Below the pieces are notes generated by a model. The model was not told where the DNA came from. It did no database searches and was given only the letters and a program-made list of their open reading frames with translations. DNA of 51,466 nt from Armatimonadota bacterium. GTDB taxonomy: Bacteria > Armatimonadota > Fimbriimonadia > Fimbriimonadales > GBS-DC. This document shows positions 5,424 to 47,080 of this stretch, piece by piece; within the stretch, counting starts at the first letter, position 1, and each line of letters starts with the position of its first letter. The translations under genes were made by a program, and so were the position numbers. The stretch is taken from contig JAUQOS010000006.1 in the NCBI GenBank assembly GCA_030550775.1, positions 1-51,466 on the forward strand, read 5' to 3'.

Positions 5424-5584
5424 GAGATTCCTCGCCTGCGGCTCGGGGAATGACAAAGTCGGTCTGCTGGGATTCCTCGCCTTCGGCTCGGAATGACGGG
5501 TGAGTCGGTGCGCTAACAACGCTGTCATTCCGAGCAAAGCGAGGAATCTCAGCATACTCTTCGCCTGCGGCTCGGAATGACGGA
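5424..5584. repeat. Cluster of REP-like palindromic repeats (GAGATTCCTCGCCT[G/T]CGGCTCGGAATGACA family)
   Basis: Copies at about 5424-5455, 5469-5500, 5524-5550 (inverted) and 5560-5584; a further copy at 16233-16262 and degenerate copies at about 46675-46860. Confidence 0.85.
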
Positions 5585-5880
5585 ACGGCGTTTTCTTAGA
5601 TTCCCCGCCCGCAGCTTAGAACAACAAGCACATCTTGGCGCAGATAACTGTGTCGTTCCAAGCAGAGCGATAAATCCCACCCGTTCAAATTGGCTCCTCT
5701 ATCAATCAACAGTTGCCCCGAAATCTGGTGGTTCTTCCAGCCTCTTTGCCGATTACAACTGGGCTATAACAGAGCAGTTTCGAAAGGAGCTGTCCGCTTT
5801 GAGCGATTTTTTTGAGCCCTAACAACTAGCGGGCGAGTCTCAGCTCCTCGTCGCAACTGCATTATGAACGGAGGTGCACG

Positions 5881-7509: not shown

Positions 7510-7958
7510 CGTCGCTCTACCTCCGCTGTGCGAACCTTGAGAATAGACACCGCAAAGCGGCGGAAATACACCCACGATTGGAGAATGCGCCGCGTGTAGA
7601 GCATATACTCGGTCGCGTCTGCCTCCTCAAGAACTCTACGCAGGAGTGGGTCGTTTGCCCCGCCCTTGCCATCCGTCTCAACGCCGATAATGGCTCCAAT
7701 ATGCTGAAGCAAGAGCTGATGGGCTTTCGCTATCGCCTTGTCCTCGTCATTGGCTTTATCTACATAGAACGCTATCGCCTGCGATAGCCCGCAACTTCGA
7801 ACCAGCACAGGAAAGTCGTGGCACCGACTACCATAAATCTGGCGTATGCGGTCGGCGTGGAGTTTGTACTCCTCTTGTTTCACCACCTCCAGCACTGAGC
7901 TTACCAACTCTAAAGCGAGCTTCATCATCCGCTGTGAGTGGGTTTGCACACCTTTCAT
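7506..7958 (-). CDS. cmr5: Type III-B CRISPR small subunit Cmr5
   Basis: Small helical protein between cmr4 and cmr6; IRQIYGSRCHDFPVLVRSCGLSQAIAFY is Cmr5-like. Overlaps cmr4 by 4 bp. Confidence 0.85.
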   Translation of the reverse strand: MKGVQTHSQRMMKLALELVSSVLEVVKQEEYKLHADRIRQIYGSRCHDFPVLVRSCGLSQAIAFYVDKANDEDKAIAKAHQLLLQHIGAIIGVETDGKGGANDPLLRRVLEEADATEYMLYTRRILQSWVYFRRFAVSILKVRTAEVERR

Positions 7959-8842
7959 TGGATCACCACCCTGCACAGACCGCGCCCGATGGTGGCCTCG
8001 CCACCAATTTGCAGGTATCCGTCCACCTTGAGCTCGTCCAGCGCGACTTGAGCCTCTGGGAGTTGTTTGGTATGCACCACAAAACCGTAGAAGATGCTTT
8101 CCGCCGGTACAAACTCTTCATACCATAGCGCGCTCCCTGCAACGGTTTTTGTTGCATCGTCAAGGCGCACGCGGGCAGCAATCTCAGTCGCCGTCTCGCT
8201 GAAATAGTCAAACACTTGGTCGGAAACAATCGCAAAGCGATTCAGGAGGACTTGTACCTCCTTGTTGTTTTCGCCGAACAGTTTTCGTGCCAGCTTGTTG
8301 GCGACTTGCCGCGTTGGTTCGTCGTCTTTCGCCTCGAGGTCTAACTCCTCGAAGTAGACTTTGTTATCTCTACTGAGTGTTTTGTCGCTGGCAAGAAGCA
8401 CTTGGGTACCTTCAACTGCAGGCACCTCTGAAAATAGCTCGCTGCCCACAAACACTTGCATCATCTGCTTGAACCGTCGCAGCACCAGCGGGCAGGTGAC
8501 ATAGGCGAAGGTTCCGTAGAAGCTACGCACGGGCAGGCAGAGGATGCGCAGATCGGTGAACGCCCAGTCGCCTCCTACGGGTTGGCGTTCCGTGTCGTTG
8601 GGTTGTGGTGGTTCGGAACCGAACGCTTTCGTGAGTTTGTCGTTGTCCCATTTTGCTGAGAACTTGAAGTGGTCGCGCAGCACGCCTTTGAACGCGGAGG
8701 CGGGGATAATCGGAAAGCCAGTGGCTTTTTCGCGGGTGATAGGCAGATCTATATTTGCCACGGCTTGCCCTGTGCCCACATGCACGGGCGTCAGCGCGTG
8801 CAGCAAGACAAGTTTTGCTTTGTGAGGGGTGGTCTGGCTCAT
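7955..8842 (-). CDS. cmr4: Type III-B CRISPR backbone RAMP protein Cmr4
   Basis: LLHALTPVHVGTGQAVANIDLPITREKATGFPIIPASAFKGVLRD; GRGLCRVVIQ C-terminus. Confidence 0.93.
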   Translation of the reverse strand: MSQTTPHKAKLVLLHALTPVHVGTGQAVANIDLPITREKATGFPIIPASAFKGVLRDHFKFSAKWDNDKLTKAFGSEPPQPNDTERQPVGGDWAFTDLRILCLPVRSFYGTFAYVTCPLVLRRFKQMMQVFVGSELFSEVPAVEGTQVLLASDKTLSRDNKVYFEELDLEAKDDEPTRQVANKLARKLFGENNKEVQVLLNRFAIVSDQVFDYFSETATEIAARVRLDDATKTVAGSALWYEEFVPAESIFYGFVVHTKQLPEAQVALDELKVDGYLQIGGEATIGRGLCRVVIQ

Positions 8843-16070: not shown

Positions 16071-16320
16071 TTGCGCTGGTTGTCGCGTGTGTTGGGGGGC
16101 TGCTTGAGACAGAGAGCTGAAGCCATTCTTACCCACACAGAGCCGCCGCGAAATGGTTTCAGTGTGCTTCACTGTCGCGAAAAAGCACCTGTCCCCCCGA
16201 GCGCAGCGAGGGGGCTCGGATATAGTTTGCCGGAGATTCCTCGCCTTTGGCTCGGAATGACAGGCTCACTTTCGCATCAATAGAGCCGTCATTGCGCGCA
16301 TGGCGAAGAACCTTGTTTGC

Positions 16321-17938: not shown

Positions 17939-17977
17939 TTCTGCCCTCCTGCATGGAGTATACCCCCCGATGAGCCC

Positions 17978-26689: not shown

Positions 26690-26873
26690 ACGCAGATTCG
26701 GGTTCAAAAACGGGCAACTGCTGACCCGAGCGTCAGTCAACAACACCCTGCTGACCGCTTGCATGCAGTGTTAAAACGCAGGCAAGCGGTTGCGCATCAA
26801 AGTATACCCCAAGCGGCGCTGATAATTCAAGGGGTCAGCTTTTTCAGCTGCCCCCACGCAGCGGGGAAACCTA

Positions 26874-39101: not shown

Positions 39102-39446
39102 TTAGCCCGGAGGCCACCCCATGGGTCGCCCGCCCAGCACATGGAAGTGGAGGTGATATACCGACTGCCCCGCGGCGCGGTTGGTGTTGAGCACCACGCG
39201 GTAGCCCTCATCGGAGATGCCCTCCTGACGGGCGATTTCGGCACACACCCACAGCAGATGTCCGATTAGTCCCTCATGCTCTGGCTGCATTGCCGCAAGG
39301 TTATCAATATGCTCGCGCGGAATGACCAAGATGTGCGTGGGCGCTTGCGGATTGATGTCGCGAAAGGCAAAGGCGTGGTCGTCCTCGTACACCACTTGGG
39401 TTGGAATCTCTTTGCGTGCGAACTTGCAAAACAGACAGTCGCTCAT
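39102..39446 (-). CDS. HIT family (Hint-like) protein
   Basis: CLFCKFARKEIPTQVVYEDDHAFAFRDINPQAPTHILVIPREHI...GQSVYHLHFHVLGGRPMGWPPG. Confidence 0.95.
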   Translation of the reverse strand: MSDCLFCKFARKEIPTQVVYEDDHAFAFRDINPQAPTHILVIPREHIDNLAAMQPEHEGLIGHLLWVCAEIARQEGISDEGYRVVLNTNRAAGQSVYHLHFHVLGGRPMGWPPG

Positions 39447-40165
39447 CGGTGCCTCCCTTCGGAACGCTCTAAGTCGCGCTCACGCAGCAGCGTGCGCACC
39501 TTCTCTATCGCCGCTTGGGCGATTTGGTGCACCTCTTCGGGCTTGAGTGAGAGCTTCTCGGCGGCTTGTTCTAAAGTATGCACCTGCTCACCTTGCAACC
39601 CATGCAGCAGGCGCATTACCACGCGCTCGCCCGGTAGCAACTCATCCAGCACACGCTCAATCTGCTTAGGCTGGATTGGCTCGCGCGTGTCATAGACAAT
39701 CTGCAGCAACAGCGGCTCTTCGTGCTTGGCGCGATTTTGCCACGCACGTAAGGTGGGGGCAATCTGCGTATAACCAAGCGTTTCGGCGTAATACCCCTCC
39801 GCCCAGAAGTTGCGCTTGCCGATTTCCGCTTCCAAGCGCGGAATACCCTCAAACAAGCGGTGTGCCGTGCTGCGTTTGATGTCGCTGACGACCTCGGTAA
39901 TCGCGTCGGTGGGCTTGAAGCCCACAATCAGGTGCACTTGGTTCGGGCGGAGCCGGTAGGCAATCAGGTCATAGTCATAGCTGGCGCATACCTCAGGCAG
40001 CACTTGAGCAAACAGCGCGGTTACTTCGGGGTCGAACAGCGGTTTTTTGGCGCGCGCGTAAAATGCCAACAGCACATACAGGCGGTATGCGCTGGAACCC
40101 GTAGTGCGCAATCGTTCAAACGGCGTACGTGGAACCCGCTGCGAACTTGAAGTTCGCCTTGCCAT
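39443..40165 (-). CDS. Apparent fusion: Y1/HUH (IS200/RAYT-like) transposase domain with degenerate HUH motif plus sigma-70 region-4-like domain
   Basis: AYRLRPNQVHLIVGFKPTDAITEVVSDIKRSTAHRLFEGIPRLEAEIGKRNFWAEGYYAETLG resembles Y1_Tnp; DELLPGERVVMRLLHGLQGEQVHTLEQAAEKLSLKPEEVHQIAQAAIEKVRTLLRER resembles sigma70 region 4. Confidence 0.75.
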   Translation of the reverse strand: MARRTSSSQRVPRTPFERLRTTGSSAYRLYVLLAFYARAKKPLFDPEVTALFAQVLPEVCASYDYDLIAYRLRPNQVHLIVGFKPTDAITEVVSDIKRSTAHRLFEGIPRLEAEIGKRNFWAEGYYAETLGYTQIAPTLRAWQNRAKHEEPLLLQIVYDTREPIQPKQIERVLDELLPGERVVMRLLHGLQGEQVHTLEQAAEKLSLKPEEVHQIAQAAIEKVRTLLRERDLERSEGRHR

Positions 40166-40204
40166 AGGAATCCTCCACCCTCGCGGCAGTAAAGAAAGTA
40201 TACC

Positions 40205-42328
40205 CTATTGTGAGAGCAATCCTCCACTCGCTGGAGCGAGATGTTCCATATGTTGAGCAAGCCAGTGCGCGAGGGCATCCAAAGAGTCGAAAATCGGCAT
40301 GCCTGGGGGTAGGTTATTCAGAATTTCGGTGCCGTAGGCGCGAGTGCGCATGCGCGGGTCCAGAATCGCCACGATGCCCACATCGGTGCTGCGGCGAATC
40401 AGTCGCCCAAAGCCCTGACGCATCTGCAGCTTGGCAAGTGGCAGTGTCCAGAGGCGGAAGGCGTCCTCACCGCGCGCCTCGAACCACGCATGCCGCGCCC
40501 GCTGTAGGGGTGTCGTGGGCACTTCAAACGGAATGCGCGTGAGAATTAGGTTCGAGAGCGTTTCGCCAGGCGCGTCGAAACCCGTCCAGAACGAGCGCAG
40601 TCCGAACAGCACTGAGTGTACATCCTCGCGGAACTGCTTGGAGAGGTCGGCGTTAGAGCTGTCGCCCTGCATTAGGATTCGAAGGTCGGGCAGCGGGGGG
40701 AGATGCTTAGCAACTTCGTGCATTTCGTGGCGCGAGGCGAACAGCACCAGCGCGCGCCCGTGCGTGAGGCGCAGCAAGGCACCGATCTGCTCGGCAAGCG
40801 CGGCATAGTACTCGTTGGCGCGTGGAGCTTGCGGATGGGAAGGTGGTTCAGGTATCACGCCCACAGGGGGTAAATAGAGCGCGCACTGCTCACGGTAGTT
40901 GAACACGGGGGGCAGCTGGAGCCGGTAGGGTGTCTCCAGCCCTAACTGCTGCACGAAAAAGTCGAACTGCCCATCAATGGTAAGGGTCGCGCTCATCAGC
41001 AGGCTGGGGCGTTTTTGCCACAAGTGCTGGTTGAGCCATGCTGCAACCTGAAGCGGCTCAAAGCATGCCCGCCACCCCTCCGACGCAGGTTCTACCCAAC
41101 AAACGCCCTCAGGCGGCTCCGCCAAGCGACCAAGGCTGGCATGTATTTGCGCAAAGCCCGGACTAAACTGCAGCAACACCTCTGCCACTGCGTGGCGTTC
41201 GGCGTCTGTGAGTTGGCCGCGCATGGTTTGCACGGTTTGGCTCAGCTCTTGGTAAAGCGTGCGGATTTCCGCACGAAGCGTCTGCGCCAAGTGCTCCACG
41301 AGGGCGTGGAGTTCGGGGCGATATGCGCGGCGCAAAGCGGGCATCTCTGCCAGTTCTGCGGGCGTAACGCGCGTGGCAGTCCCGTGGCTCGGCAAGTCGG
41401 GCATCTGTGTCTGCTCCCACGCTTCGCGACATCGCTGCCCGAACTGCTCCACCAGCTTTTGTACCGACAAGATAAACCCAAGCGGCGGTTTTTCCGAATC
41501 CAACGCGGCGCCGATTTGATTGCCGAGCGTCGCAGCGTAGGCAATCAGTGAGTCAATAAACTCCTTGTCTAAGTCAAACTCCAACGCGCTACCAGCAGCG
41601 TCCAGCAGGTCGTGTGCCTCGTCCACGATAAGGTAGTCGTAATCGTCCAGCAACGACAGTTTGTCGTCGGTGGCTTGACGCACGATAGCGTCGGTAAGCA
41701 CGAAGGCGTGGTTGGTGATAACGATACTGGCTTGTGCAGCGCGTCGCCGGGCGGCGTAGTAGAAGCACGATTGGTAGTATGGGCACACTCGCGCGCGGCA
41801 GGCAGGGGGCGCGGCGATTTGCTCCCACACGCCCTGTTTGAAGCGGAGCGGCACGCCCTTGCGTCGTAAGAACTCGTCCAGCTCCGCTTCCACGCCCTCT
41901 TGGGCAACTGCGCTCCACTCGCGCAGATAGCGTACGAGTTCAGGGCGTACCTGTTGAAGTGCCTTGCCCCGAATCGCATCCAAGCATGCGTAGCGGCTGC
42001 GCCCCATCGCCAGCGCCACCGATGGCGCCTCCGGAAATAGGCTCAGCGCGAAGGGCAAATCTTTGCGCCAATATTGCTCCGCCAGCACATTGGTGTAGGT
42101 GCTAATCACGACGCGCTTTTTTTCGCTGAGCACAAGGGCGATGGTGGGCAGCAGCACCGCAAGGCTTTTGCCAACACCCGTTGGGGCTTCCACCAGCGCG
42201 GAAGTTTGACTCTCTAACCGCTCGCACACAAAGCGTGCCATGTCGCGTTGCACAGGGCGCATTTCAAACCCAGGTTGCGCTTCTAGGCGCGCAAACGCGG
42301 CTTCTACCGTCCCCCACAAATGACTCAT
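40205..42328 (-). CDS. DinG/XPD-family ATP-dependent helicase
   Basis: RPVQRDMARFVCERL...VEAPTGVGKSLAVLLPTI...Cys cluster CRARVCPYYQSC...NHAFVLTDAI...LIVDEAHDLLD...GLRSFWTGFDAPGETLSNLILTRIPFEVP...QGFGRLIRR. Confidence 0.92.
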   Translation of the reverse strand: MSHLWGTVEAAFARLEAQPGFEMRPVQRDMARFVCERLESQTSALVEAPTGVGKSLAVLLPTIALVLSEKKRVVISTYTNVLAEQYWRKDLPFALSLFPEAPSVALAMGRSRYACLDAIRGKALQQVRPELVRYLREWSAVAQEGVEAELDEFLRRKGVPLRFKQGVWEQIAAPPACRARVCPYYQSCFYYAARRRAAQASIVITNHAFVLTDAIVRQATDDKLSLLDDYDYLIVDEAHDLLDAAGSALEFDLDKEFIDSLIAYAATLGNQIGAALDSEKPPLGFILSVQKLVEQFGQRCREAWEQTQMPDLPSHGTATRVTPAELAEMPALRRAYRPELHALVEHLAQTLRAEIRTLYQELSQTVQTMRGQLTDAERHAVAEVLLQFSPGFAQIHASLGRLAEPPEGVCWVEPASEGWRACFEPLQVAAWLNQHLWQKRPSLLMSATLTIDGQFDFFVQQLGLETPYRLQLPPVFNYREQCALYLPPVGVIPEPPSHPQAPRANEYYAALAEQIGALLRLTHGRALVLFASRHEMHEVAKHLPPLPDLRILMQGDSSNADLSKQFREDVHSVLFGLRSFWTGFDAPGETLSNLILTRIPFEVPTTPLQRARHAWFEARGEDAFRLWTLPLAKLQMRQGFGRLIRRSTDVGIVAILDPRMRTRAYGTEILNNLPPGMPIFDSLDALAHWLAQHMEHLAPASGGLLSQ

Positions 42329-42350
42329 AGCACCAAATTGTACCTCGATT

Positions 42351-42719
42351 TTGCCCGTTGTTGTGGGGTACAACTTTCAGGTGGCAGTTGCCGAGCAAGC
42401 GGGGCGTGTGTATGCCCTGGTGCGCCGCATTCCTCCGGGCAAGGTGGTCAGCTACGGGCAGCTGGCTGCCCTTTGTCCGCCGCTTACCCCACGCCATGTG
42501 GGGCAGCTGATGGCGCGTGCCCTCGCGAGCGAACTGCCCTGGTGGCGTGTGGTGGGCAGCGACGGCCGCTTGCGCACCCTTCGGCGCGACCCAATGCTTG
42601 CTCAGCTGCAGCGCACCCTGCTCCTGCGCGAAGGCGTCCAGTTCACGCCCGACGGACGCGTCGCTATGACGCCCGAACAAGTTGCCAACCTTGCAACCTT
42701 TGAGGTAGAATTGCCGTAG
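42351..42719 (+). CDS. Alkyltransferase-like (ATL) protein, MGMT C-terminal-domain homologue lacking the acceptor Cys
   Basis: VYALVRRIPPGKVVSYGQLAAL...PRHVGQLMARAL..LPWWRVVGSDGRL: PWWRV replaces PCHRV. Confidence 0.88.
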   Translation: MPVVVGYNFQVAVAEQAGRVYALVRRIPPGKVVSYGQLAALCPPLTPRHVGQLMARALASELPWWRVVGSDGRLRTLRRDPMLAQLQRTLLLREGVQFTPDGRVAMTPEQVANLATFEVELP

Positions 42720-46615: not shown

Positions 46616-47080
46616 GCCATTAGGGCGCCAAGGCAGCTAGACGAACGCTGCCTTGGGCTCAAAGAGGCTGCCGAGGGGCGAGGAATCTCCACTGTCCTTC
46701 TGCGCCGCAGGCGACGAATCTCAGAAAACCGACCCGTCGTTCCGAGACGAAGGCAAGGAATCCCGGGCTGGGCACGGCTAAGCCCCCTCGCTCCGCTCGG
46801 GGCAACAGGGTCGTTTTCGTGGCAGTAAGCCTGTTATTCCGAGCCACAGGTGCGGAACCTCAGAAACCGCTCGTGACGTCGGAGTGCGGCACACAGCAGG
46901 GCAAACTTATGCATACACGAAGCCGACCCGCGTCAGCTCAGCTTGTGCAGGTGGGTTTGGCTTGCAAAAGAACAGTTTCAGCCGTTTATCTACGAACGCG
47001 AGGTTTTGCCCTGCCGTGCCCTCGCGCCCTGGTTTCCCAAACACTCGCTGAGCATGTGAGTTAGGTACAATTTCTCAGGT

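Follow-up and report, generated by a model that had tools for sequence, protein, structure and literature searches.

The 51,466-nucleotide stretch of DNA analyzed here (the window) encodes a 240-aa protein in which an earlier note had recognized a Y1 transposase-like domain followed by a helix-turn-helix (HTH) resembling sigma-70 region 4. Such a protein could be a transposase, a RAYT, a sigma factor or a product that the host has adopted for its own use, and the question is which of these it is. The open reading frame reported at 39443-40165 proved to be real. No strand had been given for it; it lies on the minus strand, and the plus strand across the same span is broken by many stops. The gene and its domains are as follows.

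39443..40165, minus strand: Y1-sigma4 fusion gene, 240 aa (ATG at 40165-40163, TGA at 39445-39443), with orthologues in 18 of 18 genomes of its bacterial family (Fimbriimonadales, Armatimonadota)
40172..40176, minus strand: GGAGG, probable Shine-Dalgarno sequence of the fusion gene
39764..40090, minus strand: Y1 (IS200-like TnpA) domain, residues 26-134 (Pfam PF01797, 1.2e-17; hhalign 99.5% to active TnpAs)
39482..39670, minus strand: sigma-70 region-4-like domain, residues 166-228 (Pfam PF04545, NCBIfam, hhalign 98.5%, Foldseek to sigmaA domain 4)

Two domains in one conserved protein

Both parts of the proposed fusion were borne out, with Pfam, NCBIfam and hhalign matches (99.5% and 98.5%) far above chance. 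The NCBIfam model of IS200/IS605 transposases matched the protein at 1.3e-19 and 70.7 bits (cut-off of 55). For the C-terminal part, the Pfam Sigma70_r4 match of the window's protein (residues 172-224; 1.1e-4) scored 22.1 bits, slightly below the cut-off of 24.1, and several NCBIfam models of sigma-factor C-termini matched at values such as 1.9e-8 and 1.3e-7, with sigma region 4 spanning approximately residues 164-233. All 18 orthologues matched both Pfam families, the sigma region 4 family down to 2.1e-9. A sequence search of the PDB led from the first half to ISDra2-type transposases and from the second half to domain 4 of sigmaA/RpoD. Outside the C-terminal part, neither Pfam nor NCBIfam gave a match to sigma region 2; the protein differs from the sigma-70 family in having neither region 2 nor region 3.

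A search of 121 genomes recovered relatives over the full length of the protein in each of the family's 18 genomes, which span six genera, at 35-82% identity and with one orthologue per genome. When 291 genomes of the phylum were searched with a profile, proteins matching both halves were found exclusively in these 18 genomes (0 of the 273 others); in the remaining 273 genomes, the Y1 half and the sigma half matched different proteins (E ≤ 1e-9). The named close relatives are metagenome assemblies of Fimbriimonadales/Armatimonadetes. Beyond the phylum, the search covered close-relative patterns in genome contigs as well as phage and plasmid records; the phage and plasmid records yielded partial matches only, and the annotated ones were mostly IS200/IS605 transposases. 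Fusions of independent origin may exist outside the phylum. A search of the open-access literature with narrow terms found no published description of a Y1-sigma4 fusion. In one orthologue (L015, genome G009), the usual ATG start is replaced by ACG, and translation likely begins at the GTG codon directly after it.

Pairwise comparison of the orthologues yielded dN/dS values of 0.06-0.20, that is, purifying selection. In most pairs, dN was lower for Y1 than for the sigma domain and peaked in the linker. K97, R98, R118 and the WAEGY motif were invariant. These data bear on the trivial explanation that the frame is a decaying gene, a one-off frameshift or an assembly artefact, for which the lost catalytic residues described below are the sole point in favor. 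The same architecture and an open frame occur in 18 independent genomes and the dN/dS values are low, so this explanation can be set aside as having practically no chance of being correct.

The Y1 active site is degraded in all orthologues

To examine the catalytic residues, we aligned the 18 orthologues with 28 Y1 proteins of the IS200 and RAYT types. The sequence of ISDra2 TnpA was entered in the form that we take to be correct, and it matches the available part of the PDB chain; all other sequences came from fetched loci. The relevant positions in the window's protein are listed here.

39932..39940, minus strand: Q76-V77-H78 (CAA GTG CAC, 39940-39932) in place of the HUH motif, with Q in 18 of 18 orthologues
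39788..39805, minus strand: WAEGYY, residues 121-126, with WAEGY invariant; Tyr125 aligns with the non-nucleophilic Tyr116 of ISDra2
39731..39745, minus strand: AWQNR, residues 141-145, the former stretch of the nucleophilic Tyr and the metal-ligand Gln; no Tyr is present and the ligand is changed to Arg

Among the 28 comparison proteins, all kept both His residues and 27 kept the nucleophilic Tyr. The QVH triplet reported previously was found at 39932-39940, and the damage extends further than that motif. As to its conservation, the Gln in place of the first His is universal (18 of 18), but the second His persists in 13 orthologues only, the five others carrying Y, Y, N, Q and I. The column of the nucleophile (Tyr132 of ISDra2) contains A, M, L, V, I, Q or S and not a single Tyr in the 18 orthologues, and the metal-ligand column contains R in 16 and G in 2. 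In class-1 TnpAs, which have a Y---Q signature, this Gln belongs to the metal site and is essential in IS608 (PMC6006769).

The earlier note had pointed to the Tyr in WAEGYY as a candidate catalytic residue. This assignment failed in the alignment with the 28 TnpA/RAYT proteins: Tyr125 falls in the Tyr116 column, which holds a Tyr in most active TnpAs as well, and therefore is not the nucleophile, whereas the true column never holds a Tyr in the orthologues. The alignment of the last helix could be off by 1-2 residues, so that W142 could face the Tyr position, and a conserved Tyr appears in neither register. Since the first His, the Tyr and the metal-ligand Gln are changed in all orthologues, the cleavage activity has very likely been lost, in line with the loss of transposition chemistry proposed previously. 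One could argue that the protein remains an active HUH-type nuclease in which Gln substitutes for His, as the second His is retained in 13 of 18 orthologues. However, the Tyr and the third ligand are absent from all 18 and the second His from five, and we consider a surviving nuclease extremely improbable.

The Y1 domain groups with IS200/IS605 TnpA and not with RAYTs

The protein had also been regarded as a relative of the RAYTs. In a phylogenetic tree, however, the 18 orthologues formed one group (support of 100/99) beside the IS200/IS605 TnpA proteins, a joint placement supported by just 92/71, and together with all IS-type proteins they were split from the RAYT-type proteins at 100/98. The NCBIfam RAYT model scored 29.3 bits (cut-off of 80), compared with the 70.7 bits of the IS200 model, and the Y---NP motif of RAYTs was absent. 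Based on the tree split and the NCBIfam scores, an origin from a RAYT was ruled out, and the kinship lies with class-1 IS200/IS605 TnpA instead.

The fusion protein shares with ISDra2 and IS608 TnpA, its closest group in the tree, the Y1 domain, the conserved W and the GY motif. It differs from them by its dead active site and the additional sigma4-like domain, and whereas those transposases occur as mobile copies, it is present as one orthologue per genome throughout the family, with no TnpB found in 16 of the 18 genomes. The likeness to RAYT/TnpA-REP proteins is of another kind: these are also Y1 proteins retained by the host, and those of subclass 2.1 carry a C-terminal HTH, which is Bac_DnaA_C, HTH_23 or HTH_28 (PMC6006769). 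RAYTs nevertheless keep the HuH and Y---NP motifs (PMC6006769), neither of which is left in the fusion protein; it stands apart from them in the tree, and its C-terminal domain is of the sigma region 4 type.

A related proposal was that the protein acts on REP-like palindromes, in which the window had been described as rich. The abundance was confirmed, with 10 palindromes around GAGATTCCTCGCC in the window against 1.1 expected, but none of those in the window lies near the fusion gene. Dispersed palindromes of the form GATTCCTCGC...GCTCGGAATGAC occur in the window at 5424-5609, 16233-16261 and 46677-46764. Their number, counted in 61 genomes, ranged from 0 to 242 among the carriers of the fusion gene and did not track with it: 72 copies in the source genome, 242 in G009 and 0-1 in nine other carriers, one of which is a single-contig genome. 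The gene is kept regardless of this count; hence, the palindromes are not its necessary target, and the suggested link between REP elements and the fusion gene fell with the nine carriers that have 0-1 copies. That the protein is a RAYT managing the palindromes of the genome would fit the 72 copies in the source genome, which has no other Y1 protein, the single-copy fusion being the sole one found there. Nevertheless, the Y1 domain is not RAYT-like and no longer has its active site, and only 0-1 palindromes occur in nine of the carriers, which leaves this explanation very improbable.

The sigma4-like half has kept its core and lost most of its promoter-reading arginines

An alignment of the fusion with the sigma factors of the phylum by hhalign gave 98.5% over 61 columns. 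An AlphaFold model, built from five close sequences, was confident only in the sigma4 half (pLDDT of about 80), with values under 70 across the greater part of the Y1 half. In Foldseek, the sigma4 half matched sigmaA domain 4 with target TM-scores of 0.77-0.79 and an rmsd of about 2 A, while none of the E-values for the whole model was below 0.001.

We next inspected the residues that correspond to R584, R586 and R588 in what we take to be the sequence and numbering of E. coli RpoD. In the orthologues, these positions are occupied by P/V/A/H, by E/D and mostly by H/Q, respectively. The domain thus has the fold and the core residues of sigma-70 region 4, including its hydrophobic core, but in the helix that recognizes the −35 element most of the arginines are gone, and this helix is now acidic or neutral. 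Because these positions are mostly replaced, the reading of standard −35 elements is unlikely; the domain possibly contacts the polymerase, another protein or a different DNA sequence, although the analysis turned up no target site. A scan for defense systems with PADLOC returned only a weak match of the sigma domain to MzaA. At 7955-8842 on the minus strand, the window contains an open reading frame that resembles, by eye, the RAMP proteins of type III CRISPR systems.

The neighboring genes and a candidate promoter

The fusion gene is flanked by the following features.

39102..39446, minus strand: HIT-family gene, 3′ of the fusion gene, its start overlapping the fusion stop by 4 bp (ATGA, 39446-39443)
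40205..42373, minus strand: DinG-like helicase gene, upstream; longest open reading frame with an uncertain start, named from reading the sequence
40196..40205, minus strand: −10-like element GGGTATACTT, with the GGTATACT core preserved ahead of the fusion gene in all 13 genomes of the genus

The 4-bp overlap with the HIT gene is as previously described. The HIT gene adjoins the fusion gene in 15 of the 17 genomes where this could be judged and the DinG-like gene in 13 of the 13 genomes of the same genus, in which the order is DinG-like helicase, Y1-sigma4, HIT. HIT also lies downstream in three further genera, where its ATG precedes the fusion stop shortly instead of forming the ATGA overlap seen within the genus; it is not adjacent in the two most distant genera. 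From this arrangement, the fusion gene would usually be translationally coupled to the HIT gene. Upstream of the fusion gene, the GGTATACT core is followed by a Shine-Dalgarno-like stretch in 13 of 13 genomes of the genus, and this conservation suggests that Y1-sigma4 and HIT are probably transcribed from their own promoter. The sequence GGGTATACT occurs three times on the minus strand of the window (17957-17965, 26801-26809 and 40197-40205; 0.14 expected) and may be a promoter element in common use in this genome.

The orthologues of the two most distant genera (L053 and L054) are located beside genes that by eye are nrdR-like and ribonucleotide reductase-like (G017) or pyrR-, pyrB- and hisS-like (G015). 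As the context differs there, the neighbors name no pathway. The gene context also touches on a role in replication, repair or nucleoid structure on single-stranded DNA or forks, with no part in transcription and with the sigma4-like tail as a mere protein-docking module. TnpA proteins do work on lagging-strand single-stranded DNA (PMC6006769), and a DinG-like helicase gene is adjacent within the genus; the latter neighbor is, however, confined to that one genus, and the fusion gene has a promoter-like element of its own. We regard such a role as improbable.

A probable host-adopted, catalytically dead TnpA

The conservation of the gene in 18 of 18 family genomes under a dN/dS of 0.06-0.20 agrees with the proposal of a domesticated protein that retains its fold, and with high confidence we consider the gene to be domesticated and its chemistry lost. 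The protein probably serves the host now as a DNA- or RNA-binding control protein. The reading that we favor, if by a modest measure, is that of an old host-adopted TnpA of the IS200/IS605 class, dead in catalysis, whose Y1 half would bind nucleic acid and whose sigma4-like half would serve the polymerase, a partner or DNA. In this exaptation, an old TnpA would have lost the chemistry of single-stranded DNA cleavage while its fold stayed under purifying selection. The Y1 half, probably dimeric as in TnpA, would still bind nucleic acid that is structured or single-stranded. The sigma4-like half would recruit the protein to RNA polymerase (through the beta-flap) or to another partner, or would read different DNA, as the replacement of most −35-reading arginines alongside a preserved hydrophobic core leads us to infer. 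The protein would then act on transcription or chromosome structure, being neither a transposase nor a promoter-reading sigma factor.

A more specific form of this model, which we put forward tentatively, is that the dead TnpA reads a DNA or RNA hairpin while tethered to RNA polymerase by the sigma4-like domain, a structure-directed transcription factor and the TnpA counterpart of TldR. TldR, with RAYT subclass 2.1 the nearest parallel to the fusion protein, likewise is an IS200/IS605 protein turned regulator (PMC13418256), the regulatory role of the fusion protein being our inference. TldR is, however, TnpB-derived and RNA-guided and its regulation has been shown (PMC13418256), whereas the fusion protein is TnpA-derived and known from sequence.

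An ordinary regulator of double-stranded DNA, in which the Y1 half only dimerizes and two sigma4-like HTHs read a palindromic or semipalindromic operator with a new specificity, is a comparably doubtful possibility. It would agree with the retained HTH fold, with DNA-facing residues that are altered around an unaltered core, and with the HTH tails known on some Y1 proteins (PMC6006769). Yet Y1 is usually the most conserved part of the protein, beyond what a scaffold needs, and an acidic or neutral recognition helix also speaks against this possibility.

Hosts are well known to put IS200/IS605 components to new use, with TnpB having given rise to Cas12 and TldR, and with Y1 proteins kept as catalytically competent RAYTs. 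If the favored reading of a host-adopted, catalytically dead TnpA is correct, the TnpA half, too, can be reused without its chemistry, as a Y1 protein kept by hosts across a family after loss of the whole active site and combined with a sigma-factor domain. The 18 orthologues and their invariant residues provide the material for asking what a Y1 fold that no longer cuts does.
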